This document shows positions 6,396 to 53,835 of a DNA stretch of 64,000 bases, in pieces (positions within the stretch are counted from its first letter, which is position 1; every line of letters begins with the position of its first letter). The translations under genes were made by a program, and so were the position numbers. This DNA comes from Malania oleifera (taxonomy: Eukaryota; Streptophyta; Magnoliopsida; Santalales; Ximeniaceae). The notes beneath the pieces were generated by a model, which was given only the letters and a program-made list of their open reading frames with translations, made no database searches and was not told where the DNA came from. The DNA is taken from assembly GCF_029873635.1 (NCBI RefSeq), contig NC_080423.1, forward strand, positions 93,911,691-93,975,690, in the 5' to 3' direction.

Positions 6396-7698
6396 ATATC
6401 TCTTATGCCCAACTTGTTGAGTGAGTTATAGAAGTCCTTGTGGGTACTGCCTTCGTGAGTATATCCACCAACTAGTCTTCTAATTTGACAAATGGAAGCT
6501 GAATAATTTTGTATTCAATGTTCTATTTGATAAAATGTCGATCCACCTTAACATGCTTGGTGCGATCAAGCTGGATAGGATTATGGGCGATGTCAACTGT
6601 TGTCTTGTTATCACAAAACAACTTCATTTCAGAGCTAGGAGCAAAGCCAATCTCAGCTAGCAACCTTCTAAGCTAGAGAAGTTCACAAAAGACCCTTAGT
6701 CATTCCTCGAAATTCGGCTTTAGCGCTGGATAATGCTACTACTTTTTGCTTCTTGCTTCTCCAAGTAACAAGATTACCTCCTACAAATGTGAAGTAGCCC
6801 GATGTAGATTTCCTATCCGAAATATTTCCTACCCAATCAATGCCCATGTAGCCTTCAACATCAAAATGATTATTTTTTTGAGAACATAAGCCCTTTTTCC
6901 ATGAGAGGACTTTAAATAACGAAGGATCTGAATTACTGCATCCATGTGGTCTTCACTAGGATGGTGCATGAACTAACTCAATACACTTATAACGTAAGCA
7001 ATATCTGGGCAGGTATAAGATAAATAGATGAGATTCCCAACTAACTATTGGTACCTCTCTTTATCTGCTGGCACCTGATCTGAATATCCTCCAAGTTTAT
7101 GATTCTGAACAATTGGAGTATCAGCTAGCTTACACTCTAGTAATCCTACTTCTAACAACAAGTCTAGTACATATTTTCTTTGAGAGAGAACTATGCCTTG
7201 TCTTGACCTAGCTACTTCGATCCCCAGAAAATACTTGAATCCTCCCAAGTTCTTCATTTCAAATTCGGTTGACAATTTCTCTTGGATTCTTGAAATCTCT
7301 TCTGCATCATCCCCGATAATAATCATGTCGTATACATAGACTATTAGAGCTGTCACTTTTCCTAATAGATGTTTTAGGAAGAGGGTATGATCCGAATTGC
7401 TTTTGTTGAAAGCTATACTTTCTCATAGCCAAACTCAACTGACCAAACCTTGCCCGAGGTGATTGTTTCAATCCATACAATGCCCATTGTAACTTACATG
7501 CAACCTTTGCCTCTGAGGAAGCAGTATATCTTGGTGGAATGTCCATGTACACCTCCTTTTCAAGATTGCCACGAAGAAAGGCATTTTCCATGTCAAGCTA
7601 GTGCAATGGCCAATCTAAATTTGCTGCAAGAGATAACAGAACTCTAACAGTATTTAGTTTGGCTACATGTGAGAAAGTTTCTTGATAATCTATGTGTT
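6396..7698 (-). pseudogene. Copia reverse transcriptase/RNase H remnant
   Basis: Minus-strand frames show copia RT phrases: DMENAFLRGNLEKEVYMDIP, KLQWALYGLKQSPRARF, IVYVYDMIIIGDD (the catalytic YVDD-type box region) and GGFKYFLGIEVARSRQGI. Continuation toward 6400 matches the RNase H end of copia pol. It belongs to the 4149-12558 element; text continuing across the inserted LTR at 4375-6395 supports this. It is a fossil with several interruptions. Confidence 0.85.
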
Positions 7699-9020
7699 GT
7701 AATATGGATCGGATAAATAGGATGCACAGCTGAATAAATACAAAACAAGTAAATGAAACACAACTAGAGAATGATAAACAATGAGAACAACAACAACAAG
7801 ATTTACGTGGTTCGGTTGCCTACATCCACGGAAGCAATGACACAAACAATTTCACTAAGGAAATGTCAAAGTACATAATACACTTCACAATGATCTCTCT
7901 CTCTATGTCAATACATGCCCAGAATGACATATATAATAGTCCCTCAGACGTATTCCTCCAATTACCCAACCACTCGAACATGCAAATTCAAAATTTAAAA
8001 ATATTGCTCGCAGCCTAGGCGCACTCGTTGATAAGTAAAGGGGATTCGTCGACGAGCCAAAGAAGCCCACTCGTTGACTAGTCTATCCTCTTGTGAACGA
8101 GTCTTCAATTCTGAGAATTTCTGGCTCTTGGTATCTACTCGTCGACGAGCACAGGGCACTCGTCGACGAGTCCCTGCTACTACACCATACCAAGAAGCAT
8201 CCATATGTTTTTCCTTCCCTTTGTTTATAAACCACCGGTATAAGAGTCATACCATAAACAATAATCTCCACCTTGGTGATTATATGCCCCTTAGGAGAAT
8301 CCTGAAAAATATGTCCAAATGCTCCACCTTAAACTTGAATCGCTCGGTTGGGTTTGTCTCCCTTCTATCAATTGGAGACATGGAGTAAGTCCAAGCAATG
8401 CTTGAACTTCTCAGAAGTAACCAATTTAGTCAGAATATTCGCTGCATTTTTAGACGTGTGAACTTTCTCCAATACAAGCTCAACTAAAGGAATCAATTCC
8501 CGAACCTTATGGAACCTCACATTAATGTGCTTGGTTCTAGCATGATATATTTGATTCTTCGCCAAGTAAATGACACTCTAACTATCACAATGCAGCACCA
8601 CTCCATCTTACTGTAATCCCGGCTCTCTAACTAAACCAGTAAGCCATAAGGCTTCCTTTGCAGTTTCAGCAACTATCATATATCCCACCTCAGTCATGGA
8701 TAATGCTACCAGAGACTGTACCATGGATCTCGAACATACCACCAGACCTCCTACAAGGGTAAATACATATCCCGTTGTAGACTTTCTGGCATCTATATCT
8801 CCAGTATAATCAGCATCTACAAACCTCATGACTAAAGGACAACCCTGTTGCTTGTCAAACATGATGTCATATCTCGAATTACCCCGTAAGTATCTGAGTA
8901 TCCGTTTGATGGCTTCCCAATGCTGCCTTCTTGGATTATAGAGAAACTTACTTACCACGCTCACAACATGAGCCAAATTTGGCCTCGTACACACCATGAC
9001 TTACATCCCATAACTCTAGC
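7699..9020 (-). mobile_element. Truncated copia (Tork-like) 3' end with its LTR
   Basis: An LTR of about 562 bp spans 7699-8260 (plus text TGTAATATGG to ACCATAAACA). On the minus strand an AAGGTGGAGATTAT polypurine tract sits just upstream of it. An RNase H region follows, 8608-8997, with HWEAIKRILRYLRGNSRYDI and FVDADYTGDIDARKSTTGYV, typical of copia RNase H. The 5' two-thirds of the element is absent. It lies inside the older copia RT. The LTR holds a TCGTCGACGAG array (8030-8175) upstream, on its strand, of a TATA-like box at 7929-7938. Confidence 0.8.
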
Positions 9021-22979: not shown

Positions 22980-23330
22980 TCTCATTTCCACATTTACATC
23001 ATTCACATTTCACATTCACATTTCAGTATTCATATTACAGCATTCACATTATAATATTTACATTTTCATATTCTCATTTCAGTATTCACTTTGCAGTATT
23101 CTCATTGCAATATTCCCATTTTTAGTATTCACATTTCAACATCCACATTGTAGTATTCACATTACAATATTCACATTTTCATTTTCACATTCTAGTATTC
23201 ACATTTCAACACTCACATTTCCATATTCGCATTTTCATATTCATATTCTAGTATTCACATTTCAATATTCACATTCCCATATTCACATTTCAATATTCAC
23301 ATCTCATCTCATAATGGTATATATCACATT
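22980..23330. repeat. Minisatellite of TTCACATTTCAATA-like units
   Basis: Units such as TATTCACATTTCA, TTCACATTATAAT and TATTCACATTCC repeat some 20-25 times in about 350 bp. They give frames rich in F, H, I and S that are not genes. Looser copies continue toward 23420. Confidence 0.85.
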
Positions 23331-28223: not shown

Positions 28224-30325
28224 TAAAAACTAAGGTGTAGTCCCAAGAGGGGGGGTGAATTGGGTTATTTAAAATTTTCTTTTAATTCTTTTTAATATTC
28301 TTAACCTCTTTTAATTCTTTTAATGAATTCTTGACTTTTTTATTGATTTAATAATCACACAAAAACGTAGTTCTTTTTATTCAATCCACAATCACACAAC
28401 AAAACTTAATCAACCAATCAATATTCAAATCAAGATATACTATGCAACTTCTTTTGGCAATTTACAACTTTTCAAGAATTCAAGATATTGAGTTGTAGGC
28501 AGCCCTGTATATATAATTAATTGATTCAAGCCCTCTGGCTAATGTAATTGATCTTTCAATATGATAATTAATATAACATCCACACTCTTTCCAAAATTCA
28601 TATTTCAAATAAACCTTCCGTTAATTGGTTTTGGGTTGTTAACCAATTAACGTACACGCTTAAGGTTTCCGTAAATTATTGATCAACCAACGTACTCCCT
28701 TTCGGTTTCTACAATCCCAAAAACAAATTAAACTTCAGCTTATTTAAAATCCAATCCACGTAGTTTTTATGATTAAGAAATATAAATCATCCACACAATT
28801 AATCTATGATGAAAATAAAGAGTGTATGGGAAAGAGAGTGACTCCGGGTTTTTACGAGGTTCGGCTTATCCCCAGCCTACGTCCTCACCTTAGGCAAATC
28901 ACTTAAGGATTCCACTATACGAGTTCCTTTCCGGGTGGAACAAAACCTTACAAGTGATACTCCACGCTTAAACACTCTTTCACTAGGCTAGAGTAATCAC
29001 CTCTCCAAGCGATACCCCACGCTTGGGTAAGGATCTAAACAATCCTTGAATTGTCAAATCTACAAGAATAAGATCAATAATATGTGTACAAAGAATTACC
29101 CTTAGATAGGGTGGATTAGTACAATTTCAAATACTATATACTTCAATCAAAATATCAATATGAAATACAATTGAAGCTCAAAAGAGATTTCACCAAGTTT
29201 TCCTTCTAGATAAGAATCAACAATTCAGAAACACGGAGAAAGATTGATCAGTTGCTTCTAGAAAATCTTCAGCAATTCAGATGTGCAAAGATGAGAGCAT
29301 AAGAGCTTTAAGAGTATGAGAGTTTCAGCTTTGAGAATTGATTTTCAATTATTTGGTATAATTTGATTTGCAAAACCATGTATTTATAGAGTTTTTAGAG
29401 TGAGTTTCCTTTTTTCCCAAGTTGCTTGAAGTGTCCCCCAAGTTTTTATAATGTTTAAATTTGAAAAACAAATTTTTAGAATTTTCCCGTTAAAGTTCAA
29501 AATTTAAATTCCTATAGGGTCAGTTAGCTAAACAGGCAATTGGGTAAGTGTTTATATAGGGTTAGCCGACTGGACAGATGGCTGAGTCCATTCTATCTAT
29601 CCAAGATTTTCAAAAAATAATTGTCATTTGGCAAACTGAACATAATTCAAATTGGTTAGTCGGCTGACCAGTCAATTGGCTGACAAAACCAAGTTCATCT
29701 TGGTTAGTTGGCTGACCAGTCAGTTGGTCGAGGTGCTGTCAGCTTCGACCACCCTTCAGTATTTTAGTTATAACTTTTTATATATAATTCCAAATTGGAC
29801 ATTCTTAGTATCAACAAAAAACTAAGATAAAATCACATAATTTTTATATTGAACACTCTTTAATATAAAGAGTGTTTGATGTAAAAAAATGTTCCAAGTA
29901 TTTTAAAAGGTATCTAAGTGCAAGTAATTACCCTAAGAACTTCATTTGTCCATATTGAAATCGAATAAAGTACTTACATAAAGACTTCTTAAGACTTTGA
30001 CATTCTAAACACTTAAGGTTTCATGCTTGTCTTTCTTTGACTCCATTTTGTCTTCAAGCTTCAATATAATTTAAGCTTTTAGCAAGTTCTCTTTAATATT
30101 CATGCTCTTATGATCTTCAAGTTTTATTAGACCATCTTTGAATCCATACCTTTTAAGCTTCAGTTGATCATCTTTCTTTGGAGTATAAGCTTTCAATGAT
30201 CCTTGTAAGCACTTAACCTTGTATTCTCATACTTAAGTCTTGAAATATCATCACTTAACCAAATATGTTAAGTTTCTCTGATTTTTTATCATCAAAACAA
30301 GATTTTAAGTTTTGTAAGGTCAACA
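28224..30325 (-). repeat. Left LTR (3' LTR) of the gag-only element
   Basis: It pairs with 33883-36097. On the minus strand it holds a GTTAGTCGGCTGACC-type array (29520-29750) upstream of a TATA box (TCTATAAATA at 29391-29400). Confidence 0.88.
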
Positions 30326-33882: not shown

Positions 33883-36097
33883 TGAAAACTAAGGTGTAGT
33901 CCTAAGAGGAGGGGTGAATTGGGTTATTTAAAATTTTCTTTTAATTCTTTTAAGATTCTTAACCTATTTTAATTCTTTCAATGAATTCTTGACCTTTTTG
34001 TTGATTTAACAATCATACAAAAACTTAGTTCATTTATTCAATCCACAATCACACAACAAAACTTAATCAACCAATCAATATTCAAATCAAGATATACTAT
34101 GCAACTTCTTTTGGCAATCTACAGCTTTTCAAGAATTCAAGATATTGAGTTATATATAGCCATGTATATATGATTAATTGATTCAAACCCTCTGGTTAAT
34201 GTAATTGATTTTTCAATATGATAATCAATATAACATCCACACTCTTTCCAAAATTCATATTTCAAATAAACCTTCCGTTAATAGGTTTTGGGTTGTTAAC
34301 CAATCAACGTACTTCCTTAAGGTTTATGCAAATTATTGATCAACCAACGTACTCCCTTCCGATTCCTGCAATCCCAAAAAAAAAATTATACTTTAGCTTA
34401 TTTAAAATTCAATTCATGTAATTTTTATGATTAAGAAATATAAGTCATCCACACAATTAATCTATGTTGAAAATAAAGAGAGTAAGGAAAAAAGAGTGAC
34501 ACCGGATTTTTATGAGGTTCGGCTTATCCCCAACCTACGTCCTCGCCTTAGGCAAACCACCTAAGGACTCCACTATACCAGTTCCTTTTTGGGTGGAATA
34601 AAACCTTACAAGCGATACCCTACACTCAAACACTCTTTCACTAAGTTAGAGTAATCACCTCTTCAAGTGATACCCCACGCTTGGGCAACGATCCAAACAA
34701 TCCTTGAATCGTCAAATCTACAAGAACAGGATTAATAATCCGTGTACAAAAAATTACCCTCAGATAGGGTGGATTAGTACAATTTCATATACTATATACT
34801 TCAATCAAAATATCAATATGAAATACAATTGAAGCTTAAAAGAGATTTCACTAAGTTTTCCTTCTAGATGAGAATCAACAATTCAGAAACACAGAGAAGG
34901 ATTGATCAGCTGCTTCCAGAAAATCTTCAGCAATTCAGATGTGCAAAGATGAGAGCATGAAAGCTTTAAGAGTATGAGAGTTTTAGCTTTGAGAATTGAT
35001 TTTCAATTGCTTGGTATAATTTAATTTGAAAAACCATGTATTTATAGAGTTTTAAGAGTGAGTTTCCTTATTTCCCAAGTTGCTTGGAGTGTCCCCCAAG
35101 TTTTTATAACATTTAAATTTGAAAAACAAATTTTTAGAAATTTTCCATTAAAGTTCAAAATTTAAATTCTTGTAGAGTCAGTTGGCTGGACAAGTGACTG
35201 GTAAGTGTTTATACAAGGTCAACCGGCTAGACAGGCGGCTGAGTCCATTTTGTCTGTCCAGGATTTTCAAAAAATAATTGTCAGTCGGCTAACTGAACAT
35301 AGTTCAAATTGGTCAGTCAGCTGACTAGTCAGTTGGCTGACAAAACACAGTTCATCTTGGTCAATTGGCTGACCAATTAGCTAGTTGAGGTCTTGTCAAC
35401 TTTGACCACCCTTTGGTATTTTTATTATAACTTTTTCTATATAATTCAAAATTAGACGTTCTTAGTATCAACAGAAAACTAAGAGAAAATCTCATAACTT
35501 TCATGTTGAACACTTTTTAATATAAGAAGTGTTTGATAGAGAAAAATACTCATCAATACAAATATAAAAAAAATAACAGAATTTGGAAAATCCTATTTTG
35601 GTGCTTTTCATTCCAAAAATAATTTTAATCTTTTTGAAATAATTTTTGACCTTATAAAAATATTTTTCAAGTATTTTCAAAGGTATCTAGGTTCAAATAA
35701 TTACCCTAAAAGTTTCATGTATCCATATTAAAATCGAATGAAGTATTTACATAAAGACTTCTTAAGACTTTAACATTTTAAGCACTTAAGTATTCATGAT
35801 TGTCTTTCTTTGGCTCCATCTTGTCTTCGAGTTTCAATATATTTTAAACTTTTAGCAAGTTCTCTTTAATATTCATGCTCTCATGATCTTCAAACTTTAT
35901 TAGACCATTTTGAATCTATGCCTTTTAAGCTTCAGTTGATTATCTTTCTTTGGAGTATAAGCTTTCAATAATCCTCGTGAGTACTTGACCTTGTATTCTC
36001 ATACTTGAGTCCTGAAATATCATCACTTAACTAAATATGTTAAGTTCCTCTGATTTGTTATTATTAAAATAAGATTTTAAGTATTGTAAGGTCAACA
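33883..36097 (-). repeat. Right LTR (5' LTR) of the gag-only element
   Basis: It pairs with 28224-30325. It has the same motif array at about 35170-35400 and a TATA box at 35039-35047 on the minus strand. Confidence 0.88.
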
Positions 36098-36102
36098 CGT
36101 TC

Positions 36103-36930
36103 TAGTTCAAGTATTTTAGGAGTGACATGGCCTAATCTCAGTCGTCCAATTTGTGTTTTCTTTGACAATTGGATTGCTGTCACGTCAGCGATCCCTTTCA
36201 AATGATTTAAGCCACTCGAAAGATGCCACATGATAGGATGATGTCATGTTGTCATCACTCTATTGTAGATTTTTTTTTTTTTTTAAAAAGGAATTGGGCG
36301 ATGCCACGTCCTAGAGTGACTACAGCTAATTTAAAAAAAATAAATAAATACTATAGAAAAATTATTAAATCCTATAGAAAATCACATCTATACACACACA
36401 CACACACACACATTACATATACATATTATTAATTAAGAAAAGAGTAAACAATTTTTTAACTTACATATTTTTTTCCTTATTCTTTCTAAAATACCTTTTT
36501 CTAAAAGATCCTTATTTTAATTGCTACTTATCTCTTACTTAAAATACATTAAGGGTATTTAAGTAATTTAACATAATAATTTTAATTTCAATATTAATTA
36601 AAAAAAGTCTTATAACTTGTAAACTCACCTTCCTAACCTCGCAAAACTATTAATACGTATATAACTTTTACCTACTCGTCTATACCATGAGAAGTAGGGG
36701 CAATTTTTAACTTACGTATAATTTTTTTTGTCTGCTTCCTAAAATGTTCTTCGTTTTACAAACTAAAATATTTACTAACCACAGTATATATGTAATTTAA
36801 CAGAATATATTTTAAATTTTTAATAATTTATTAATTTTTTCAATTTCTCTTCCAACTCTCTGTCTCTTAAATGAATTTACCGAAGTGTCAATGCTCTATT
36901 TTTTTAACAAAAAAAACTAGTAACCCCTTT

Positions 36931-36976
<46 letters not shown>

Positions 36977-37110
36977 GTATCAACATTCATACCTGACCAT
37001 ACATACATACATATAGAAAACACATTTTAACACGTGTTAAGCACCTGAACTGCGCCGGGGGGAAGGGAGCCAATGGCGCGGGCAGGGGGGTTGGGCGCAA
37101 ACAGATTAGT
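36103..37110. other. Intergenic region upstream of the RING gene's possible first exon
   Basis: The first 200 bp look like the continuation of the LTR remnant at 26414-28223. Then follow AT-rich DNA, a (CA)n run (36392-36411), an (AT)n/(GTAT)n block (36930-37015) and a GC-rich patch with CCAAT and GGCGCGGGC (37050-37100). The GC-rich patch could be promoter-proximal. Confidence 0.4.
36930..37015. repeat. (AT)n and inverted (GTAT)n/(ATAC)n microsatellites
   Basis: An AT run leads into TGTATGTATGTATGTAT. After an 18-bp spacer comes ATACATACATACATA. The two blocks are reverse complements and could form a hairpin. Confidence 0.85.
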
Positions 37111-37119
37111 GCTAGACTT

Positions 37120-37484
37120 TGATTATATTATGTCTTCGCAAACATACCGTTATCTTTAAAATACGTCGGCGCACATTTTATGCTCCATTCCACAAATTTC
37201 TACTTCCAGCAGGTGGATCCTTCTCCCAAACCCTAATTTGGTTCTTGTTGAACACTTTCAGGTTCCCATTCATGATTCTTTACTAATCCTATTCGTTGAT
37301 TAATGATCATCTTTGCGTTATCTCGATTCATTGTCCTGCTCGCTTTTATGCCGAAACGCGAGCTGCATTTTTTATTTTAAGGTTGGAATAGTGAAGCGGA
37401 AAGTTTAATCTTGCGTATTGAACCTTTGCGTTTGATCTTGAGCACGGCTGACTCGACTACGTCAAGTTGACTCCTACGACTTTG
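37120..37484 (+). promoter_or_regulatory. Possible promoter and 5' non-coding exon of the RING-H2 gene
   Basis: Non-repetitive text with CCCAAACCCTAATTTGG and C/T-rich patches looks like a plant 5' UTR, and ACTTTG|GTAATT near 37484 could be a splice donor. The RING coding exon at 52114 begins right after an intron-like acceptor, so an upstream non-coding exon must exist somewhere. That it is this one is inference. Confidence 0.3.
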
Positions 37485-37777
37485 GTAATTTCCTCGAACC
37501 CTTCAAGATTTAGGTCATGCGTTCTCTATTTTAGGCTGATTTTGGCAGTGGAGGTGTTTCGATTTTGCATTCTGTATTAGTTTGTGATTCAGATGCTCAA
37601 TGTAGCCTTGTATGTAGTCTGGATCTTGCCTACAGCTACTGCTATTATTATTATTTACTTTAGGGATATTGTGAAATTGACCGATGCTAGACTCTTTATG
37701 TTGTGATGTGGATTTTATATTGGAATGTGGTGGGCTAGCAAGGTGGATTCTTGAGTCTAGAGTTTGTTCTTGATGTG

Positions 37778-38515
37778 TGCTATGGGCCAAACATGAATAA
37801 GATTAGAGATACCAAACCAGAGGGGAATCCGAGTAGATCGAGGGGCTCGGACAAGGTAACTTGTTACAGGGGAGCTCGAACAAAGGGTTCCGAGCTGATC
37901 GTCAGATTGAAGATGATGAGCAGGTTGAAGGGCTCGGACGAGGCGGTTCGTTGCAGGGGAGCTCGAGCAGAGGACTTGAGCGGCTCGAACGAAATGGCTG
38001 GTCGCAGGGGAGCTCGGACCGAGGGTTCTGAGCTGAGGTCGTCAGAAGAGGCCGAACTGAGTGGGGGGTTTGGGCGGGTCGGCCATTTCGCAGGTTACCT
38101 CTTCGCAGCCCGAGTCGTTGTGGGCCAAGGTGTGGATCACGTGGCAGCTAGGTCGAACTCCCTTAACGACTCATTATTTTCTTAAGTGTTAAGGGGCAAC
38201 TGTAGTAGAGCGCATGGGGTATTCTAGAATAGTTAGTTAGAGTTTGTTATGTATAAAGCTAGGGGTCAGCGGGAATACAACGGAGTAGAAAATTGGGAAT
38301 CAATTTGTTTTCTATTTCTGGAGAGTGGCTCTCTCGAACCAGCCAACCTGTTCTTTCTTATTTCCATTTCTTTTGTATGCATTGCAGTATTAAATTCAGT
38401 TCATCTCTGTAATTTCATTCTCTTGCAAGTAATTCATTCAATCAAGGCATTATCACTCGCTTGAGTCCATTACAAATTGTGTTGAGTTAATTCCATTTCA
38501 AGTGGGTTCATTACA
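37778..38515 (+). repeat. Left (5') LTR of the gene-capturing element
   Basis: It starts TGCTATGGGCCAAACATG and ends TTCATTACA. Its U3 holds GC-rich repeats with GGGGAGCTCGRAC and GGCTCGGACGAGG phrases (about 37835-38040). A TATA-like TATGTATAAAG follows near 38248. Confidence 0.93.
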
Positions 38516-38544
38516 ATTGGTATCAGAGCCAAACTCCTATCACC

Positions 38545-38740
38545 ATGGGAGAGGGAACTCGCATGAACCAGATGTTAGAGTCCATCGTTGCCCTGAAGAG
38601 ATCACAAGAAGAGCAACAAATCACTCAAGCCGAATAGCAGAAGCTACTCATCACCATGACTCAATAGTTGGGAGCTCTCTCCGATGCTGTGAAGCTTCTC
38701 AGCAAGCAGAAACTCGACCAGGAAGGGCCAGGAGAGACAT
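38545..38740 (+). pseudogene. Short gag-like leader of the gene-capturing element
   Basis: The first frame after the primer site reads GEGTRMNQMLESIVALKRSQ and then LGALSDAVKLLSKQKLDQ, like the N-terminal coil of plant gypsy gag proteins. No capsid domain or zinc knuckle of a gag follows; text of the STOP1 type begins near 38740-38800. The gypsy origin is an inference from this leader. Fossil, with more than one interruption. Confidence 0.4.
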
Positions 38741-38799
38741 CGAGCCACAACTTCGGATACCAACACCGTGAGAGCTTCAATGGGGAGCAACACATTATA

Positions 38800-39290
38800 G
38801 ACAGAGCGGAGACCTTGCTTGGCAGCGATCAGAGACAAATGGTGTCCTCGGAGCTCGTCTCTGCAATTCATCAAATCATCATCAACAACGCAGCTTTACT
38901 TGCTTGCACCCAGAATCTGGGAGTATCAAGCCCATCGGATCTGGTCAAGGCACTTGCTAATCAACAGCTGGTTGCTGGAATCAGCGTTCCTGATGCAAAG
39001 ATTTTGATGAAAGGCGAGGTGGTCGACGAGGAGGCGGTTGATGAGATGGACGGTGACGATCAGTGCAAGATCGTGGAGCTCGACGCTATGGAGTCGCTTG
39101 CCGAGCACATCCACTTCTGCGGGATCTGCGGAAAGGGGATTAAGCGAGATGTCAATCTGAGAAAGCACATGCAAGCTCATGAAAATTAGCTCACAACCCC
39201 AGAAGCGCTCACCAAATCACTGAGCTACGTTGAGACCAAGAAGACAAGGTTCTTGCGCCCGTTCCAGGGTTGCAATCATATAAAACCTCA
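38800..39290 (+). pseudogene. Captured fragment of a STOP1-type C2H2 zinc-finger gene
   Basis: STOP1 is a plant transcription factor for proton and aluminium tolerance. The frame reads QMVSSELVSAIHQIIIN, then an acidic linker, then HIHFCGICGKGIKRDVNL with RKHMQAH, a C-x2-C-x12-H-x3-H finger of the STOP1 kind (family consensus HFCxICGKGFKRDANLRMHMR). TPEALTKS and a KTRFLRPFQGCN segment follow, matching the start of the second STOP1 finger (PFxGCNRNK). After that the similarity stops. Only the middle of the gene is present, uninterrupted by anything intron-like. It sits inside an LTR element and is not expected to make a working factor. Confidence 0.75.
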
Positions 39291-39560
39291 CTATCTTGTG
39301 TTTGGTTTGATTTCCTTGATGAAGTCATCGGCGGGTGTCTCGAAAGCGAGTTCTATGGGGGCTTTCGAAATGTCTTTGTTCAAGGGTCCTCCTACAATGG
39401 AGTTTTTGCAAGGGTCAAAGTCGCTTCCTGCTAGCGGGGTCTCGGTAGCCGAGGAAATGGATAAAAGGGGAACAATGTGTTATGAGGATGAAGATGATGA
39501 GAAATATGTGGAGGTTTCTAAGCAGTTCTGTGTACATGGGGATTTGTCAATGGCGCCAGA
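39291..39560 (+). other. Unassigned captured segment
   Basis: An open frame (SSMGAFEMSLFKGPPTMEF, then MCYEDEDDEKYVEVSKQF) lies between the STOP1 and synthase pieces. It may be the N-terminal leader of the synthase gene, or a piece of a fourth host gene. I do not recognise it. Confidence 0.35.
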
Positions 39561-40060
39561 ATGGCAGATCGTGGTCGTGAACTAGCTTTTGGTGCGGGCT
39601 TTTCTCGATCCCGAGAGCAAGAAGTGGTGCTTTGATGGGGACATAGATGACTTGGTGTTGCAGCTAAAGGATAGGTTTCCACCGGAGGTTGAGGTCTTGT
39701 ATGTGGGGAGTTTGAAGGCGGAGATCGAACCGGCGGAGCGGAAAGAGGTTGCCCAATTCTTGTTGAAGAAGTTTGGGTGCGTGCCTACTTTTTTGTCCAA
39801 TGAAATTCAGGACAAGTTCTACCATGGATTCTGTAAGTATTACCTTTGGCCTCTGTTTCATTATATATTGCCTGTTTCACCAATCAATGATGCCCAGTTC
39901 AACCTGTCTCAGTGGCATGCCTATGTAAGAGCAAACCAGATTTTTGCCAATAAGGTCTTGGAGGTGCTAAACAACCCTTATGAGGACTTCGTCTTGATAC
40001 ATGATTATCACCTCATGGCTATGTCATCTTATCTGCGGAAAAAAATTCACCAAGCAATAA
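39560..40060 (+). pseudogene. Captured N-terminal fragment of a class II trehalose-phosphate synthase (TPS)
   Basis: Class II TPS proteins have a glycosyltransferase-20 domain followed by a phosphatase-like domain and act mainly as sugar-signalling regulators. The frame here reads RAFLDPESKKWCFDGD, EVEVLYVGSLKAEIEP, FGCVPTFLSNEIQDKFYHG, YLWPLFHYILPVSP and LIHDYHLMAMSSYLRKK. These line up in order with the first part of the GT20 domain of plant TPS8-11-like proteins. The match stops at about YLRKK, where ATPase sequence begins in the same frame. The synthase resumes only after 41196, with its phosphatase-like part. Confidence 0.85.
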
Positions 40061-41195
40061 TGATAAAAGCAAGGGTAGAAGGTTCTGGTTTTCAAGTTGA
40101 TGAGTTTTCAGAGTCAAGTATAGCAGCATGCCGGCTAAAAATTAAAGGAATGACATGCACCGGCTGTGCTGAGTCTGTTGAACGTGCCCTTTTAATGGTT
40201 GATGGAGTGAAAAAAGCTATGGTTGGTCTTGCCCTTGAAGAAGCAAAGGTCTATTTTGATCCAAATGTCACTAATACTAACCACATCATTGAAGCAATAG
40301 AAGATACTGGCCTTGAAGCCGATCTTATAAGCTCTGGCAATGATGTTAACAAAGTGCACCTAAAACTTGAAGGAGTGAGTTCTCTGGAAGAAATGAATTT
40401 TGTTCAATCCTCTCTTGAGTTTGTTGAAGGTGTGAATCAAGTTGAAATGGACATGGAGGGAAGTGCAGTAACTGTTAGTTATGACCCGAACCTCACTGAC
40501 CCAAGATCTCTTTTGCATTGCATTCAGGAAGCTGGGCGTGACGCCAAAAGGTATAATGCAACCTTGTTCCATCCTCCTAGACGAAGAGAAAGAGAGCAGG
40601 AGCATGAAATACAGATATATAGAAACCAGTTCTTCTGGAGCTACCTATTTTCAGTTCCTGTTTTTGTTCTTTCTATGGTACTTCCAATGCTTCATCCTTA
40701 TGGCAACTGCTTAGATTATATGGTGTACAACACGCTCACTGTTGGCATGCTTCTAAGATGGATCCTTTGTACACCAGTGTAGTTCATTGTTGGCCGAAGG
40801 TTTTATGGGGGATCGTACCATGCTCTGAGACGGAGATATGCTAATATGGATGTTCTAGTTGCATTGGGAACCAATTCTGCTTATGTCTATTCTCTGCATA
40901 TAGTTATTAAAGCATTGACTTCAGAGGAATTTTAGGGTCAAGATTTCTTTGAGACTAGTGCCATGTTAATATCCTTTATTCTCCTAGGAAAATATTTGGA
41001 GGTGGTGGCTATGGGGAGGACATCTGATGCATTGGCAAAACTGACAGACCTTGCCCCTGAGACAGCTTGTCTGCTTATATTGGACACTGATGGAAATGTT
41101 GTCTCAGAGATGGAAATCAACACTCAATTGATACAAAGGAATGATATAATTAAGATTTTTCCAGGAGCAAAAGTTCCTGTTGATGGGGTTGTTGC
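40061..41195 (+). pseudogene. Captured fragment of a copper P1B-ATPase (HMA5-type)
   Basis: HMA5-type pumps export copper. The piece starts near GFQVDEF and has a metal-binding domain with GMTCTGC (C-x2-C), then VHLKLEGVSSLEEMNFVQ, a second domain without the cysteine pair. Next comes the membrane region (QFFWSYLFSVPVFVLSMVLP, NMDVLVALGTN, DFFETSAMLISFILLGKYLE) and the start of the actuator region (NDIIKIFPGAKVPVDGVV). It stops before the phosphorylation DKTGT motif. No intron-like sequence interrupts about 1.1 kb, pointing to a spliced RNA source. It is broken in a few places and lies between two TPS pieces. Confidence 0.88.
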
Positions 41196-41725
41196 CACTA
41201 ACTTCAAGAAGCTTTCCGTTGATCACATTATTAGTGCCTATGTGAATACAAATAGCCGGTTGATACTTTTGGACTATGATGGGACTATGATGTGAGAATC
41301 TTCAGTGGACAAAACTCCCAGCAATGAAGCTATTACTGTGTCGAATGCTTTGTGCAGTGATCCCAAGAACGTTGTTTTTGTTAGCAGTGGTAGAGGGAAG
41401 GATTCTCTCAACAAATGGTTTTCTACATATGAAAAATTGGGAATTTCAGGAGAGCATGGCTCCTTTAACAGGTGGACTAAGGATTTTCCATGGGAGTTTT
41501 GCCCATTAATGATGGAATTTGATTGGAAAAAGATGGCAGAACCTGTGATGGAGCTTTACACTGAAACAACTGATGACTCTTCTGTAGAACAGAAGGAAGG
41601 CGCGCTTGAAGGTGATCTTACTAATGAGCCTGTAGTTGTTAAAACAGGTCAACACCTAGTGGGAGTGAAGCCACAGGGTGTTAGCAAAGGCTTGGTAGTG
41701 GAAAACCTTATATCGACCATGCGAA
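41196..41725 (+). pseudogene. Captured C-terminal (TPP-like) fragment of the class II TPS
   Basis: The frame reads NFKKLSVDHIISAYV, then RLILLDYDGT (the DxDGT box of the HAD phosphatase-like domain), ALCSDPKNVVFVSSGRGKDS, GISGEHGSFNRW, MAEPVMELYTETTDDSS and VGVKPQGVSKGLV. These follow the order of the phosphatase-like domain of plant class II TPS. A stretch of the family between the SS and NEP blocks seems shortened. Probably the same TPS copy as at 39560, with the middle replaced by the ATPase piece. Non-functional. Confidence 0.85.
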
Positions 41726-41958
41726 GTAGGGGAAAGACCCTAGAGAAACATCTTTTCGTGAAACTTAATTCTCTTATCCAAAGCTACTGTTGGTTTGTGC
41801 GTGTGAGAGGGGAGAGAGAAGACAGATGGCGTTGTTTAGAGAAGCACCGCGAGGAAATCCTGCAGCAGGAGAAGGAAGATGCGACGTGGGAGTGGTATCA
41901 CATGTTGAAGGAGCAGTTTTCTCACCTTGTGGGCAAGGTGCTCTCAAGCGGAGGGTAT

Positions 41959-42709
41959 TGCTATGGGCCAAACATGAATAAGGTCAGAGATACCAAACCA
42001 GAGGGGAATCCAAGTAGATCAAGGGGCTCAGACAAGGTAACTCGTTACAGGAGAGCTCGAACAGAAGGGTTCCGAGTTGATCGTCAGATTGACAATGCCG
42101 AGCAGGTTGAAGGGCTCGGACGAGGCGGTTCGTTGCAGGGGAGCTTGAGAAGAGGACTTGAGGGGCTCGAACGAAATGGCTGGTCGCAGGGGAGCTCGGA
42201 CTGAGGATTCTGAGCTGAGGTTGTTAGAAGAGGCCGAACCGAGTGGGGGGTTTGGGCGGGTTGGCCATTCGCAAGTCAGCTCTTCGCAGCCCGAGTCGTC
42301 GTGGGCCGAGGTGTGGATCACGTGGCAGCTGGGCTGGGTGCTGGGCCGAACTCTTTTAACGGCTCATTATTTTCTTAAGTGTTAAGGGGCAACTGTAGTA
42401 GAGCGCATGGGGTATTCCAGAATAGTTAGTTAGAGTTTGTTATATATAAAGCTTGGGGTCAGCGGGAATACAGGGGAGTAGAAAATTGGGAATCAATTTG
42501 TTTTTTGTTTCTGGAGAGTGGCTCTCTTGAACCAGCCAACCTGTTCTTTCTTATTTCCATTTATTTTTGTATGCATTGCAGTATTAAATTCAGTTCATCT
42601 CTGTAATTTCATTCTCTTGCAAGTAATTCATTCAATCAAGGCATTATCACTCGCTTGAGTTCATTACAAATTGTGTTGAGTTCATTCCATTTCAAGTGGG
42701 TTCATTACA
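41959..42709 (+). repeat. Right (3') LTR of the gene-capturing element
   Basis: It pairs with 37778-38515 end to end. The TATA-like TATATATAAAGC is near 42441. Confidence 0.93.
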
Positions 42710-42714
42710 ATGTG

Positions 42715-43817
42715 CACGGTGTAGGACCACCAGATTCTATGGTATTGGAATTATGTGGGTTCTTGCATCCATAACTGAATCGCTGGTTGGCTCGGTTTGA
42801 CTCCATTTGCGCGCCTATCTGATTTCTTTATTTTTGTGTTGCTTCTAGGGCCTTGCTGTTTCCCTGTTACTAGCTAAAACCTGTGTGCACAGGGTCTTTT
42901 CGTCATTAATATTTTGTTAAAAATGTTGCTAGATGGTTAAGGATGACTTGGTGCTTTGGACGGGTCAGATGGTATGGTTTTTTTTTAGATAAGTGGATAA
43001 CTATAAAAGTGGCATCATCAAATTGAATTTTGGAAGAGGAGGTGAAGGGAAGGGGCCCATGGGGGATAGGCGACCTTGAAAATATCAGTTGATATGTTTG
43101 TGTGTAATCCGTGACTAGTTTCAATAAGATGATAAGATCATTGCTAATGTTGTATAATAAATTTCACAAAGACTTGGTAGGGTGGCATTTTCTCGCGAAA
43201 ACACTTCCGTAGCGTGTATACAAGTTGTTGCTTTCTTTGTTCTACGAGATGGAACTTTCAAGGTTATTTGGAAGGTTGACCTTGGAATTTTCTTTTCCAA
43301 ATATTCTTGGATAAGTGCATATTCATTATGGTTGAGTGGTGTGCATTGGGGTGTTTATAAGGGTTTGAGATGAACAATTCTTTATCTCGTTAATGTTTTA
43401 TTGTTGGTTATGGATGCTTTGGGCTTGCTATTTGATGGGGAGGTGAGTGGTGGTGTTATTGAAGGTGTGAAGTTGGGATGTAACTTAGTAAGTATGAGGT
43501 CTTCTCCTCTCTCTCTCTTTGGTTTTTTTTGGGTACATGAAATTATTTTGTGGAGACTCAAAAAAGCATCTTAGTTTGCATAATTTTTTTTCCCAACTAT
43601 TTTAAGGGAGGAAATATCATTGAACATTTCATCCATTTTTATGCTCTATTTTTGTTCTTTTGAGTTTCTTTTCAAAAATATAATCTATTCTTTTGCTCCC
43701 CACCCCCTTTTTTTCGTATGTGATCCCTCAATCTTTTGTTGAAACAATGCTATATTTACTAGTCTTAGGCTGCCTTAATGCCATTACCTTTTTAATGCAT
43801 TGTTTTCCTGACAATTA
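42715..43817. other. Putative intron of the RING gene, no gene seen
   Basis: The sequence is T-rich with no coding features, consistent with a plant intron or intergenic DNA. Confidence 0.45.
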
Positions 43818-44277
43818 GTCTACTGCTACCTCCATTGCTGCCATCCCCACCACTATTATCATTGTTGCTATGATGCCTTTGTCATGGTCCCACAAAATCT
43901 AAAAAATAGAAAAGGTGCTCTCCATGTGAGGCCACCAAAGAAGCACATGGCATATTGGCACTATCAGGTTTTGGATTTCAAAACCTGAGTTGGTTCGAAA
44001 TTTTCTTTTGTTTTTCTTTTATCCTTCTTTTTTCTTTTGTTGGGGCATGTTGGATGTATGTCTGGTACTTTTTAATTTCCTCATATCTTATTTTTTTTTT
44101 CCTTTTTATAATTATTTTTTGAATTTTTTCAAGCAGATAAATGCTAATAGGAGATGTCGGATTTAATTATGCACAAAAATTAGTTTTTGATTTATTAGGA
44201 GGGTATTGTGGGAGTAGTCGCATTCTTCTTCGATTTGATGTAACTTGGTAGTTTGAAAAGTTCGTTCAGATTAAAAT

Positions 44278-44821: not shown

Positions 44822-47235
44822 ACAACAACAACAAAACCAAGTCTAAAATCCTACTAGGTGGAATCGACTACATGAATCATTTTTTGGCAATTTATGTGAT
44901 CATGGACAATTTATTTCGACAAATTTAGGGCTATTATATCCTTACTTAGTGTCTCATTACTAGTTATTTTAAGTCTACCCCTACCCCTTCTACTACCCCT
45001 CACAATAACTCACTCACTCTTCCTCACTGGCGCACTATGTGACCTACGTCACAAGTGCCCAAACCATCTGAGTCGTCCCTCTCTTATCTTATCTTCTACA
45101 GGCGTTATGCCTAACTTACTGTGAATATATTCATTTTTTAATTTATCTTTAAATGTTATACTATTTATCCAAACATTCTTATTTCGACAACTTTCACTTT
45201 TTGGATATGTTATTTCTTAGTTGCCTAACATTTTGATCCATATAGCATAGCTGGTCTTATAGTCATCCTATAAAATTGTCTTTTTACTTTTAATGATATT
45301 CTATGATCACAAAGCACACTTGAAGTATTTCTTCATTTTACCCGACCTACATTAATTTTATGCATTACATCCTCTTCAATTTCTCTTTCAGCTTGCATAA
45401 GATCCAAGGCATTGAAATCTACAAGTGCTATTTATTTCTACATCATCAGTTTAACTTTATCTCCAATATTCCTCCTACTATTATTGAAATTACATTTCAT
45501 ATATTCTGTCTTATTTCTACTTATCCTAAAACCTCTAGATTCTAAAGGTTCTCTCTATAATTCTAACTTAGCCTCTACTCCAATCTAGTTTCATCAATCA
45601 ATACAATATCATTTGTAAACATATATACCATGGAACTTCATTTTGAATACTCCCAGTCAGTTGATCCATCACTAAAGCAAAAAGATAAGTACTCAAAGCA
45701 AATCCTTGATATACACCTATTGTGATTGGAAATTCTTTAGTCTCTCCACCTATAGTCTTTACACTAGTCATTACTTCATCGTACATATCCTTAATGACAT
45801 TAGTATACCTACTACATACACTCTTTTTTACTAAAATCTACCATAGAACTTCCTTAGGTACCCTATCAAACATGTTCTCCAAATCAATAAATATCATATG
45901 CAAGTCTCTCTTTTTTCCTTAAACTTTTCCATTAATCTTCTTTAAAGATATATAACTTCTATAGTTGATCTCCAAGGCATAAAACCAAATTGGTTTTGTG
46001 AGACCTTCTTTTCTAGTCTCAACCTTTGTTTAACTACCCTTTCCCACAGTTTCATCATATGACTCATAAGTTTAATTCCACGATAGTTATTACAATTTTG
46101 ATTATCTCCTTTATTTTTGTATATAGTTATTAAAGTGTTTTTCCTCCATTCATCTGACATTTTCATAGTTTTTATAATTGTGTTTAATAAATTAGTTAAC
46201 CATATAATTCCATTATCACTTGAGCATTTCCAAACTTCAATTGAGATGTTATTTGGTCCTATAACTTTTCCATTTTTCATCTTTTTTATTGCAAATTTAA
46301 CTTTGCTAACTCTAATCTTGCGAATAAATTTCATATTTTTAGTTGTTTCCTCATTTGTCAATTCTAAGTTTAAGCCTTTTATTTGGTTTTCATTAAATAG
46401 CTTACTAAAGTAACTTCGCCATCTTTCTTTTATGTCTTTTTCCTTAACCAAGACAATATCATCTTCACTTTTTATACATATTACATTACCGAAGTCCTTA
46501 CTTTTTCTTTCTCTAGCTGTAGCAAGTTTAAATATATCTCTTTCCCTATCTTGTGTATCAAATCTATCATACAAATTATTAAATGATATGTGTTTAACTT
46601 CACTAACGACTTTTTTTGCCTCTTTTCTCGCCTTTTTATACTTTTCAAAGTTATCCATGTTTCTGCATATTTTCCATGTTTTATACCAAATTCTTTTTTT
46701 TTCTTTACAACTTTTTGAACATCTTGATCCCACCACCAACTTTTTTTGCTATTTGAGAATCTTCTTCTTGACTCATCTAAAATATCTTTTGCCATTTTTT
46801 TTTATAGAGCTAGCTATCATACTCCAAAGATTGTTTGTGTCTACACCATCCTCTATAGTCCAATCACAATCTTTGATCATTTTATCTTTAAATTTTATCA
46901 TATTTTCTCCCTTTAGGTTCTACCATCTAGTTCTCTTATACTGATTTATTTTATCCTTTCTCTTCCATTTTTTAATACATATATCTAACACTAAAATTCA
47001 ATGTTGTGTGGTTAAGCTTTCATCTAGGATAACATTACAATCCTTACATGATAAACGATCTACCCTCTTGGTTAAGAAAAAATATATTTAACTTTTATTT
47101 TGTCCACTTTTGAAGGTTATTAAGTGTTCTTCTCTCTTCTTAAAACAAGTATTCATTGCAATAAAATCATATGACATAGTGAAGTCTAAGATCATCTCTT
47201 CAGGCTCATTTTTGTCTCCATATCCATATCCTCCA
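44822..47235 (-). mobile_element. RTE-clade LINE, 5'-truncated, 2.4 kb
   Basis: A 10-bp target duplication TTTGTTCCCA lies at 44812-44821 and 47236-47245. On the minus strand the element opens inside the endonuclease (YDFIAMNTCFKKREEHLITF near 47165-47105). It continues through the linker and RT: LVKEKDIKERWRSYFSKLFN, NCNNYRGIKLMSHMMKLWER, VSQNQFGFMPWRSTIEVIY, then MYDEVMTSVKTIGGETKEFP and ALSTYLFALVMDQLTGSI. The 3' end has the family's typical GTCGATTCCACCTAGTAGGA block and a (TTG)n tail. Frames are broken between about 45940 and 45790. The FADD catalytic box is not readable, since its position reads CLQMILY. Inactive. Confidence 0.92.
45942..46739 (-). pseudogene. RTE LINE RT, N-terminal part, longest surviving frame
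   Basis: A 265-aa open frame covers the endonuclease-RT linker and the RT fingers of the LINE at 44822-47235. It contains KMKNGKVIGPNNISIEVWK (the A-PGxD-like region with substitutions), KNKGDNQNCNNYRGIKLMS and SQNQFGFMPWRST. A shifted frame around 45598-45786 holds the next RT blocks. Confidence 0.85.
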
Positions 47236-48240
47236 TTTGTTCCCACCCCTACCATAATTTCTAACATGAGTAGTGTCTTTATTTACAGACACTGCCACAA
47301 ACTTTGTCATCATGGATACCTTCATTATGGTACCATCAATGCCATTGTTGTTACCTTCATGCCCATCATCGGATCATCCTTCCAAATAATTTAGATGACA
47401 CCAGTTTAGTAAGTATTTTTTTAGAGACTGATGATGTGATTTTGGATTTTACAATGGGATGCCATAATTTTTCCTTAGTTCCAGAAAAGATAGTTTCTTT
47501 GAAAGGCTCATTTTTAAATATCATTAACTAGTTAATCCGTGAAAAACTGAATTATAAAAACTCATTCTATGATTTCCTACTCTTTTCTGGTTTTCGCATT
47601 CTCGCTCCACCCTTCCTGTCAAATACAACTGGTAACTTACTATGCTAATATTCTTCAAACCATTCTAGAAATATTTTTCTTGTTTGTGGCTTAAAACTTG
47701 TAGGCTTCTTCTTTTTCTTTTTCATCATCGTCTTCTTCTTTATCTATTGTGTCTATTTGGCATTTGGATCAAGGAGCTACTAAGTTTGTGGATAATTCAC
47801 CAATATTCTAATTCACTTGTCCTTAGTTTGGTGTGTCACTATGTCATAGACTCACAAATTGTTGTAATTGAGAATTCCATACACAATATATATTTATATG
47901 ACATCAGAATGCTTCATCTTTGCATTATTTATGTTGTAAATCATTTAGTTTCCTCATAAGAAATTAGATGGATGAGGAAATGTTAAAAATATTAATCTTC
48001 TATAGATTAATTTTTTTGAAGGCTCAATCAAGGCTCACATTGAGGTTTGCCTCAAGATGAAGCATGCCTAAGGTGCCTCGAGGCTCATTCTAAAATACCA
48101 AATCCCAAAAAGGTCAATGCATTATACACCGAGGTTTACAATCCACAAAAGGTCACCTTGTGCACATTTTTAGTTGAGACATACATTTTTGCTGTGAATC
48201 TCAAGTTAGAATTGGCTAAAAAATTTTAACTACATGTGCT

Positions 48241-48595
48241 ACATGAAAGGTGCTAGATTAGATTCAAAAGAAGGGGGAAGAGACGTATTTAAACTTGTTA
48301 GAGCTAGAGAAAGAAAGAGCAAGGACTTAGGTAATGTAAAATGTATAAAAATTAAAAAGTGATGATGATATTGTCTTGATTAAGGAAGAACACAAAAAAG
48401 AAAGGTGGCAAGGTTACTTTAGTAAGCTATTTAATGAAAACCAAGTATAAGACTTAAAGTTAGAATTGACAAATGAGGAAAAAGCTAAAAATATGAGATT
48501 TATTCGTAAAATTAGAGCTAATGAAGTTAGCATTTAAAAAGATGAAAAATGAAAATTTATAGGATCGGATAAAATCCCAATTGTTTTACTGTGGA
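48241..48595 (+). mobile_element. RTE LINE fragment
   Basis: Plus-strand frames resemble the linker region of the 44822-47235 LINE: ARERKSKDLGNVKCIK, ERWQGYFSKLFNENQV, LELTNEEKAKNMRFIRKIRA. Stops and frame changes abound. It separates duplication copies A and B. Confidence 0.8.
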
Positions 48596-51921: not shown

Positions 51922-52113
51922 GTTAGTGCTGTCCCATGCACTGATTGATTCTCTAGTTGCCACTTAGTTCAGTCTTGCTGTGCTGGTGTTTTGGTAATCA
52001 TTATCAGTTTTATGCCCCTTATTTATATGCAAGTCTGATGTTATGATTCTTGTTTCTTTGGTGCTTTGTTTGTCATTGTGTTGACTTTCTGCTTGCCCTG
52101 GGTCCAGTTCCAG

Positions 52114-53835
52114 ATGGATGAAGAGACGCAGAGTACCTCCCAGAACTTGGCTCAGTTCACTGTGAATAGCAATAGGAATGGTGATTTAGGAGTTGACTGT
52201 TCTGACTTATTGGCAGCATGTGCTCTTTGTAGAAGAAATTTTTCACCTAATAATGAGGCAGCTGGTGATCTTGAAGCTATATGTGGGGACTGTAAATTCT
52301 TGTTACTTGAAGATCATGGAACCCCTGTTCAGGACCCTAACCAAATGCTGTCTGGAAGAAGAAGAAGAAGCAGAAGGTACAGTAGTTCCGAGTCAATTGA
52401 GGATCATTTCTCACAGCAGTTCTCGCAAATGATTAATCTGGCGAGACAAAACGAATCCACGGTCTTTGGACATGAGAATCTACCTGTAAATGGTGATGCC
52501 GCTGCTGCAAGGCTATTCCAGCGCACAAGTTCCCATACTACCCCTAGTGGGTCTAGGAGATGGTCACGGGTGTTGTCTGATACTGAAAGTGAGGGCTTTG
52601 ATAATTTGGACTCTATTTATGGAGAGAGTGAATCAAGTATAAGCTTTAGTGGGTACAGGGTATTTCATGGTGAGAGTGATGTTATTTCTTTTAGTGCTTA
52701 TGGAGGAGATTCTGATGCTTCTGTGGATGGACATAGTTTTCTGGATACCGAAATATTTACCCATCCAGATGAGGGAAGTGATCTTGATAGTGATACTGAT
52801 ATTGACCCAATGCATGCTGGTCCCAGTGAATGGAACTTAGATGAAGAAGAGGATGGCGAGGATGACGACGATGATGGTGAATGGGAAGAAGCTGATACTG
52901 AGGAAAACGCAGTTGAATCAGCAACAACTGGAGTCCGGCTCCCAAATTTTCTCACTTCAGGCCTTGGTGAAAGCATTGGCCATGAAATTTGGCGCAGTCT
53001 TTTTGGTGTTCCTGAATTTGAACGTGTACGCTGGGGAATTAGGGAAGGCGCACAGACTGCTAGCATCTTTGCTGGTTCAGAGGGATCAAGGTTATCTCGT
53101 TATGTTGGGAATTCTGGGGATTACCTTGATGGTAGAGGCTTTGAGGAACTGCTAGAGAATCTTGCAGGGGCAGACAGCTTGAGACGAGGTTCACCTCCTG
53201 CGTCTGCATCTTTTGTTAATAATATGCCGCGCATGATTGTTAAGGAGGAACATTTGAAGCATGATGGTTTGGCCTGTGCAATCTGCAAGGATCATCTTTC
53301 TGTTGGGACCGAAGTGAACCAGCTTCCCTGTTTTCATATCTATCACCCTTCCTGCATCTTGCCGTGGTTGAGCGCACGAAACTCATGCCCCCTTTGTCGG
53401 TACGAGCTTCCTACTGATGACAAAGACTATGAAGAGGGTAAGCAGAGGGCTAGTCTTCAAATGGAAAGCCGGGAAATCCAGTCACAGGGTGTGAATGAGG
53501 ATGGTTACTCTGATGTGACTGATGGAGGTGAAGTCGATGAAGCCGGTGAATATAGTCAAGGTAGACTGCTGCTGGGAGAGCCCATGGATGTAGATCCCGC
53601 CGAAAGTGACTCCTCTGGCAGGGATGGTAGAAGAGGGAGATGGTTTTTTCTCGCTGCTGCAGCTCCAATTGTCTCACTTGTGGGTATGGTTCTTGTGTTG
53701 TGGTTGGGCAATCCTCTGGCAGAAGGAAGAGGGTCTAGAGGCCGTCCTGGCTTTGCTGAGCAGGGCCAGCGTCAAAATCAAAGTTCCCCACACCGAAGGG
53801 AGAACCCGAGCAGGAGGTGGTGGTATCTATTCTAA
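52114..53835 (+). CDS. RING-H2 E3 ubiquitin ligase (At5g60820-like), 573 aa
   Basis: Likely an E2-recruiting ubiquitin ligase. The RING-H2 is complete at about residues 388-429: CAIC, 14 residues, CFHIYHPSC, then SCPLC (C3H2C3 with all eight ligands). The block around it (NQLPCFHIYHPSCILPWLSA, YELPTDDKDYEEGKQ) is typical of plant proteins like At5g60820. A zinc-ribbon-like N-terminus has C36-x2-C39 and C57-x2-C60. A Ser-rich middle and a D/E-rich stretch (about 240-265) follow. A hydrophobic segment at about 510-533 (FFLAAAAPIVSLVGMVLVLW) suggests a C-terminal membrane anchor. I chose the ATG at 52114 because GGTCCAGTTCCAG immediately before it looks like a splice acceptor. The 16 residues readable upstream would then be intron. 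The coding exon is intact and intronless. Substrates are unknown. Confidence 0.95.
   Translation: MDEETQSTSQNLAQFTVNSNRNGDLGVDCSDLLAACALCRRNFSPNNEAAGDLEAICGDCKFLLLEDHGTPVQDPNQMLSGRRRRSRRYSSSESIEDHFSQQFSQMINLARQNESTVFGHENLPVNGDAAAARLFQRTSSHTTPSGSRRWSRVLSDTESEGFDNLDSIYGESESSISFSGYRVFHGESDVISFSAYGGDSDASVDGHSFLDTEIFTHPDEGSDLDSDTDIDPMHAGPSEWNLDEEEDGEDDDDDGEWEEADTEENAVESATTGVRLPNFLTSGLGESIGHEIWRSLFGVPEFERVRWGIREGAQTASIFAGSEGSRLSRYVGNSGDYLDGRGFEELLENLAGADSLRRGSPPASASFVNNMPRMIVKEEHLKHDGLACAICKDHLSVGTEVNQLPCFHIYHPSCILPWLSARNSCPLCRYELPTDDKDYEEGKQRASLQMESREIQSQGVNEDGYSDVTDGGEVDEAGEYSQGRLLLGEPMDVDPAESDSSGRDGRRGRWFFLAAAAPIVSLVGMVLVLWLGNPLAEGRGSRGRPGFAEQGQRQNQSSPHRRENPSRRWWYLF

Follow-up and report, generated by a model that had tools for sequence, protein, structure and literature searches.

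A 64,000-nucleotide stretch of the Malania oleifera genome (the window, on contig C7 of a 1.49 Gb assembly in 510 contigs) contains, at positions 37778-42709, a long terminal repeat (LTR) retroelement in which a short gag leader and the element's own 3' tail enclose a core whose assignable sequence is all host-derived and comes from at least five genes. Chimeric elements of this family occupy at least 36 places in the genome, as summed from match tables, and they most probably (we put the probability at roughly 0.87) represent a non-autonomous lineage of Ty3/gypsy type that works like the maize element Bs1, with host mRNAs captured by template switching and reshuffled by RNA recombination. The observation itself is confirmed: as far as our analysis reaches it is neither chance nor artefact, and it takes Bs1-type capture considerably further. 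The initial annotation had read the element's core as pieces of three or more host genes. Its interpretation is supported overall, and the chimera is real, but the annotation understated the number of donors and overlooked the retained gag leader and 3' tail; it likewise understated the order of capture, recombination among elements and the kept reading frame. The element is laid out as follows (window coordinates).

37773-37777, no strand: target-site duplication ATGTG, left, directly outside the LTR
37778-38515, + strand: 5' LTR (TG...CA), 738 bp
38518-38530, + strand: primer binding site TGGTATCAGAGCC
38545-38811, + strand: the element's own gag N-terminal leader, start codon at 38545, ~267 nt, common with gag-reverse transcriptase kin until ~38794-38807
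38812-39291, + strand: STOP1/STOP2-like zinc-finger gene piece (host gene L051, C7:8.57 Mb, 86%)
39294-39527, + strand: signal peptidase I type gene piece (host gene L043, C8:90.60 Mb, 90%)
39536-40051, + strand: class II TPS, N-terminal part (host gene L040, C6:61.66 Mb, 90.5%)
40052-41193, + strand: HMA5-type copper ATPase piece (host gene L035, C2:144.41 Mb, 95%)
41186-41735, + strand: class II TPS, phosphatase-like C-terminal part (host gene L040)
41736-41768, + strand: unassigned, 33 nt
41769-41865, + strand: cytochrome c mRNA piece, 5' leader plus ~16 codons (locus L053, C9:48.69 Mb, 88%)
41866-41958, + strand: the element's own 3' tail, ~93 nt
41959-42709, + strand: 3' LTR, 751 bp
42710-42714, no strand: target-site duplication ATGTG, right, directly outside the LTR

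The ends are those of an LTR retroelement. Both LTRs have TG...CA termini, agree at 695 of 737 aligned bases (94.3%; Kimura two-parameter distance 0.060) and are directly flanked by the perfect ATGTG duplication; at an assumed, uncertain rate of 1.3e-8 their divergence would correspond to ~2.3 million years. The primer site, as the initial annotation had proposed, presumably fits initiator Met-tRNA. The purine run described there is present ahead of the 3' LTR, at ~41946-41955 within the element's own tail, but is short and interrupted (AAGCGGAGGG). Pfam comparison of six open reading frames (ORFs) given for the window returned no protease, integrase or reverse transcriptase domain, again as annotated. 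The frame of this copy is broken by seven in-frame stops in the matched stretches: two in the gag leader, one in STOP1, one in TPS, two in HMA5 and a further one in TPS.

Host matches bear out the STOP1, class II TPS and HMA5-type sequence and add to it. The closest match of the STOP1 piece, at 86% identity, is an open STOP2-like gene (L051) that is recognised by STOP2 zinc-finger models; given that identity, L051 may not be the very donor. The TPS sequence in the window ORFs matches Glyco_transf_20 (E 7.8e-36) and Trehalose_PPase (E 2.3e-35), both of which are also carried by host gene L040, and the HMA5 piece matches rice HMA4 (E 1.3e-177). L043 matches the Peptidase_S26 and signal peptidase I models, and we take it and the captured piece, which lies upstream of the S26 domain and within one exon, to be thylakoid processing peptidase. 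L053 matches Cytochrom_C above its cut-off; the cytochrome c piece in the element is not in its own frame. The HMA5 piece is set inside TPS, where it replaces 1035 bp, and the C-terminal part of TPS has a 69-bp in-frame deletion at 41605/41606.

Two GT-AG introns of the host TPS gene (86 and 456 bp) are exactly absent from the element, and a 164-bp GT-AG intron of host gene L035 is exactly removed at ~40800 in the HMA5 piece, all three read in the letters; the copying of spliced host RNAs proposed in the initial annotation is thus upheld. The STOP1-like gene, which is one open frame over the matched part, and the single-exon peptidase piece do not inform on splicing. Family-wide the cargo comes from about twelve donors, and nine source genes were placed: those of STOP1, peptidase, TPS, HMA5 and cytochrome c together with nucleoporin (C5:5.78 Mb), DEAH helicase (C9:46.3 Mb), a gene with a VARLMGL motif (C6:95.8 Mb) and NADH dehydrogenase (C5:35.1 Mb). 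PPR and RING sequences and an HSP90 scrap (~21 residues, E ~1e-5) were recognised as cargo without a placed source. For the last four placed genes, which were named from element ORFs, intron gaps were scored by coordinates only (five in nucleoporin, at least five in DEAH helicase, two in VARLMGL and three in NADH dehydrogenase), meaning that the host genes match in abutting or nearly abutting exon pieces and the element copies match without a break.

These data bear on three other origins. The initial annotation had raised the possibility that the pieces were already adjacent in an ancestral locus; the closest host genes lie on five separate large contigs (STOP1 on C7, peptidase on C8, TPS on C6, HMA5 on C2 and cytochrome c on C9), which rules out a single fused locus in this genome. 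Gene fragments are often carried by Helitrons and Mutator-like elements, according to passages of PMC13317346 and PMC2774510, and such an element might have captured the pieces as DNA and later been caught between LTRs. The exact removal of introns rules out DNA-level capture for the intron-bearing donors, LTRs and 5-bp duplications bound the whole, and no inverted repeat of at least 25 nt was found in 36500-44000 except for an AT palindrome outside the element (shorter repeats were not searched), leaving this origin a negligible probability. The same lack of terminal inverted repeats of that length speaks against a Pack-type DNA transposon; a non-autonomous family, as first annotated, is the probable reading, but "Pack-type" applies only by analogy, that name properly denoting DNA transposons. 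Finally, the element might have been co-transcribed with neighbouring genes and the spliced product reverse transcribed. Such a read-through product would equally be without introns, and the passages on Bs1 in a 2026 review speak of three transductions (PMC13317346), but as the host genes are spread over several contigs and one piece lies inside that of another donor, the element would have had to insert beside each donor in turn, and we consider this route very unlikely.

The TPS-HMA5-TPS chimera is present in five places: the window, L031 (C2), L032 (C4), L033 (C3) and L034 (C13). TPS without HMA5 is carried by L037, L038 and L039, and L036 (C9) and L041 (C10) are further variants. Nucleoporin pieces occur in L042, L044, L045 and L046 (DUF3414 nucleoporin, E 1.7e-64, 1.5e-70 and 1.3e-55), DEAH helicase and PPR pieces in 12 further places, and a subfamily of 10 places (L052 and nine others) carries RING, alternative NADH dehydrogenase, PPR and mostly STOP1. 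Fifteen chimeric places, the window and 14 loci, were read in letters; the rest are known by match coordinates, with LTRs not checked for each. Among 16 loci inspected by eye, 12 have both LTR ends readable, and perfect 5-bp duplications flank 11 of these: nine chimeric elements (the window, L031-L034, L036, L039, L042 and L044) and the kin elements L049 and L050. L038 is the exception, and L037, L041, L045 and L046 have no readable LTR pair. The four further copies of the window chimera, each with its own target duplication, establish the mobile family that had been predicted, and five places with differing duplications also argue against the assembly artefact that the initial annotation had considered. 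Within L041, the VARLMGL-motif piece lies at 4456-6246 (+); its host gene, at C6:95.82 Mb, shows two intron gaps, and this one element copy was found. ORFs that by eye resemble a hAT-type transposon lie inside or beside L041 (~7564-9001) and L046 (~5132-6996).

The likely source of enzymes is suggested by L049 and L050, the two kin elements read, which share with the chimeras the LTR, a leader of ~290 nt and a tail of ~93 nt. L049 contains Retrotrans_gag and Ty3_capsid domains, RVT_1 is present in both, and L050 also has a stretch that looks integrase-like by eye only. Ty3-type gag and reverse transcriptase in kin with the same ends would place the lineage as Ty3/gypsy-type. The six window ORFs are without a pol domain and partner-like kin are present in the genome, neither of the two read being intact.

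The HMA5 piece must have been captured after TPS, because TPS sequence flanks it on both sides and some elements have TPS uninterrupted. When the TPS tree is rooted with the host gene, all five elements carrying HMA5 fall on one branch (support 88/96, not starred), although a tree rooted on one host gene cannot show a single origin of the element copies. The window copy is closest to the host genes in HMA5 (95% identity), followed by TPS (90.5-93%), peptidase (90%) and STOP1 (86%), an order that would fit HMA5 as the last capture but depends on each gene's own rate. The earlier captures were probably STOP1 and peptidase, followed by TPS.

Recombination among elements is evident in L036, a young element whose LTRs differ at 5 of 695 positions (99.3% identical). 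A single open frame at L036:2723-6301 (-), 1193 codons from stop to stop and 1107 from the gag start codon, joins the gag leader, HSP90 scrap and STOP1, peptidase, TPS, DEAH, PPR, HMA5 and nucleoporin pieces. Along the oriented locus it is L038-like to 5032 and L042-like in 5033-5340, carries HMA5 in 5325-5687 and is L044-like from 5682. With every column used, an HMA5 tree nests L036 among the elements (99/96) and leaves L034 and the host gene outside that group. This tree is a better test of the grouping than the 7 of 7 sites that link the L036 HMA5 piece to elements, which are weak alone, as changes on the host gene branch would leave an identical pattern. The STOP1 tree rejects a grouping of the five chimera copies as one clade (approximately unbiased test, p-AU 0.006), L034 having another STOP1 kind, and L042 combines the nucleoporin and DEAH types, whose match ranges overlap by 8 bases. 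We read L036, L042 and L034 as mosaics of other elements.

The native frame is kept at 18 of the 21 distinct joins scored, two of which are inner deletions (binomial P 1.1e-6), with the proviso that join labels were set by hand, the joins are not a random sample and subsequent frameshifts could mask or imitate the result. When four element-element crossovers (three in L036, one in L042) are left out the count is 14 of 17 (P 4.7e-5), and in the window it is 6 of 7 (P 0.007). For L042, reference pieces were cut from its own ORFs, so that native frame rests on separate domain matches, and the nucleoporin frame was checked; the NADH dehydrogenase/PPR join of L052 has an unassigned stretch between its pieces. 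L031 and L034 are shifted at joins that are in frame in other copies. Donor matches overlap by 8 bp at HMA5/TPS (41186-41193), 6 bp at HMA5/nucleoporin and 2 bp at the TPS deletion, and by 16 bp with mismatches at PPR/HMA5.

Absence of introns would also be expected if processed pseudogenes made by long interspersed nuclear elements (LINEs) had been dropped successively into an LTR element that then copied itself, and a run of seven A residues does lie just left of the TPS/HMA5 join, though host TPS has five A there. The joins themselves argue otherwise: 9 of 10 places checked are without an A or T run of at least 6 within 40 bases, the exception lying inside TPS sequence; HMA5 replaces 1035 bp of TPS instead of interrupting it; 18 of 21 joins are in frame; and inspection of the joins by eye showed no target duplication within the element, a systematic search not having been made. 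We regard this origin as highly improbable.

To ask how the frame fared after capture, stops in the STOP1, peptidase, TPS and HMA5 pieces of 11 elements were compared with host genes under a neutral simulation that used the transition share of the data. Observed versus expected stops were 0/6.1 in L036 (P 0.002), 1/6.3 in L032 (0.015), 2/6.9 in L033 (0.026), 2/6.8 in L037 (0.029), 3/6.7 in L031 (0.09), 3/6.3 in L034 (0.12), 5/5.9 in the window (0.46), 6/6.4 in L038 (0.53), 5/5.8 in L039 (0.46), 0/1.9 in L042 (0.13) and 1/2.3 in L044 (0.33). All 11 thus have fewer stops than expected, significantly so in four, with P values that flatter the result because copies share descent and part of the divergence arose in the host genes, which tolerate no stops. 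Every one of the 11 likewise has a nonsynonymous share under neutral expectation; the deficit is significant for four (L034, L037, L039 and L044) and not for the other seven, and the donor genes' own branch contributes to it; for L036, which was chosen for being open, the share is 0.690 against 0.721 expected (P 0.17). NG86 ratios against the donors, mostly 0.3-0.75, had suggested protein-level constraint, but that case is weakened because the neutral simulation comes close. We conclude with moderate confidence that the frame is kept and the protein largely free to drift.

A bolder proposal is that the lineage uses host mRNA as interchangeable material, with selection acting mainly on openness of the frame (through RNA survival or packaging) and little on protein. 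We hold this tentatively, at somewhat less than even odds; those odds were lowered slightly because an earlier run on 6 of the 11 elements had looked more neutral than the 11-element one. The frame is the boldest and least certain part of our account. An alternative for this part, compatible with template switching, is that these are ordinary decayed capture elements whose openness is a leftover of coding donors and was never selected. Seven of the 11 elements, including the window copy (5 stops against 5.9), L038 and L039, are not significantly depleted of stops, openness was the criterion for picking L036, and the joins are not a random sample, all of which this alternative would accommodate. 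Coding donors alone, however, do not make joins in frame, yet 18 of 21 are, and stops are significantly few in L036, L032, L033 and L037; we think the leftover explanation unlikely.

Taken with the ends, copies and mosaics, we infer a process of capture by template switching. The element would retain its LTRs, primer site, 3' tail and gag leader, the last probably a packaging region, and gag-pol kin with the same ends would supply enzymes in trans. In the particle, reverse transcription would switch onto co-packaged spliced host mRNAs and back, so that host pieces replace gag-pol stepwise; in the TPS branch STOP1 and peptidase would have come first, TPS next and HMA5 last, in place of the TPS middle. 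Switching between co-packaged chimeric element RNAs may then reshuffle pieces, as L036, L042 and L034 suggest. The forms that spread would mostly be those with the gag frame open across the joins, either because their RNA escapes decay of early-stop transcripts or because the fusion protein helps its own RNA.

Several observations weigh against this reading, which draws on DNA sequence. L049 and L050, the sole kin read, are broken up, with LTRs 6-7% diverged, and include no intact enzyme donor. L036 has no near-identical relative among the 40 of 203 candidates scored, its LTR being matched elsewhere at 90% or less and LTR end plus leader at 93%; in the HMA5 comparison it fills 32% of the longer alignment, and the 363 shared columns alone give no strongly supported branch. 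The HMA5 piece starts within ~3 nt of an apparent host exon start (window 40051-40054), for which we offer no explanation. TPS/cytochrome c, TPS/VARLMGL in L041 and gag/STOP1 in L052 are out of frame, and a further, unscored kind of join, gag/HSP90, is in frame in L037, L039 and L041 and out of frame in L038. Among the nine informative joins of ten inspected, three overlap by at least 6 bp, one by 2 bp, one by 1 bp and one by 0, and the remaining three have 8-16 unmatched bases instead of overlap.

Elsewhere in the window, direct repeats of ~2.1 kb, 89-90% identical, at 28226-30325 and 33885-36097 are perhaps another LTR pair, and a weak RVT_1 match below cut-off at 45942-48529, with a 190-nt inverted repeat (86% complementary), may be LINE remains. 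A 598-aa open frame with a RING-H2 finger at 52039-53835 (+) is apparently an ordinary host gene, and a degenerate tandem array with a 14-bp unit occupies 22993-23315.

Bs1 of maize is, in the passages of PMC13317346 on it, the standard example of several-gene capture by one LTR element: pieces of three host genes (proton ATPase, xylan endohydrolase and beta-1,3-glucanase) form a chimeric gene. The Malania family resembles it in having intronless host gene pieces between LTRs and a hybrid reading frame, a likeness that implies no claim of descent from Bs1, and differs in its at least five donors for a single element and about twelve across the family, its element mosaics, its intermediates within one genome, the nesting of one piece in another and the young 1193-codon open frame. 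Host gene pieces between LTRs are also described in passages of PMC3726574 and PMC2774510, the latter a maize-wide survey in which, as far as those passages go, no element held two or more standard genes under the conditions applied. In pepper, LTR-retroduplicated NLR genes derive from captured spliced mRNA, ~72% lie in elements that lack coding potential for gag or pol, steps are supplied in trans and some LTR elements hold two or three genes; in the passages compared these are presented as NLR retrogenes, with no in-frame patchwork (PMC5664825). For Veju, a terminal-repeat retrotransposon in miniature, and BARE-2, the corresponding passages describe abnormal template switching that joins dissimilar RNAs packaged together, but the sequence gained in those cases is of unknown origin or stems from a second retroelement rather than host mRNAs (PMC13317346). 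No like family was recognisable among titles and beginnings of abstracts, a scope outside which most subscription papers fall.

The family is therefore a more extreme case of Bs1-type gene capture, one that adds, swaps and fuses pieces, mostly in one continuous frame. A single genome preserves the apparent steps, from gag-reverse transcriptase kin through elements with STOP1 and peptidase to TPS, HMA5 and later mosaics, and these make countable both how host mRNA enters retroelements (joins, microhomology and choice of donor) and what allows a non-autonomous RNA to persist, an open frame or not. The family points to an RNA route for exon shuffling; if host mRNA does serve as building material kept open in frame, pieces recombined in the particle would constitute an RNA-level exon-shuffling pool of the plant.

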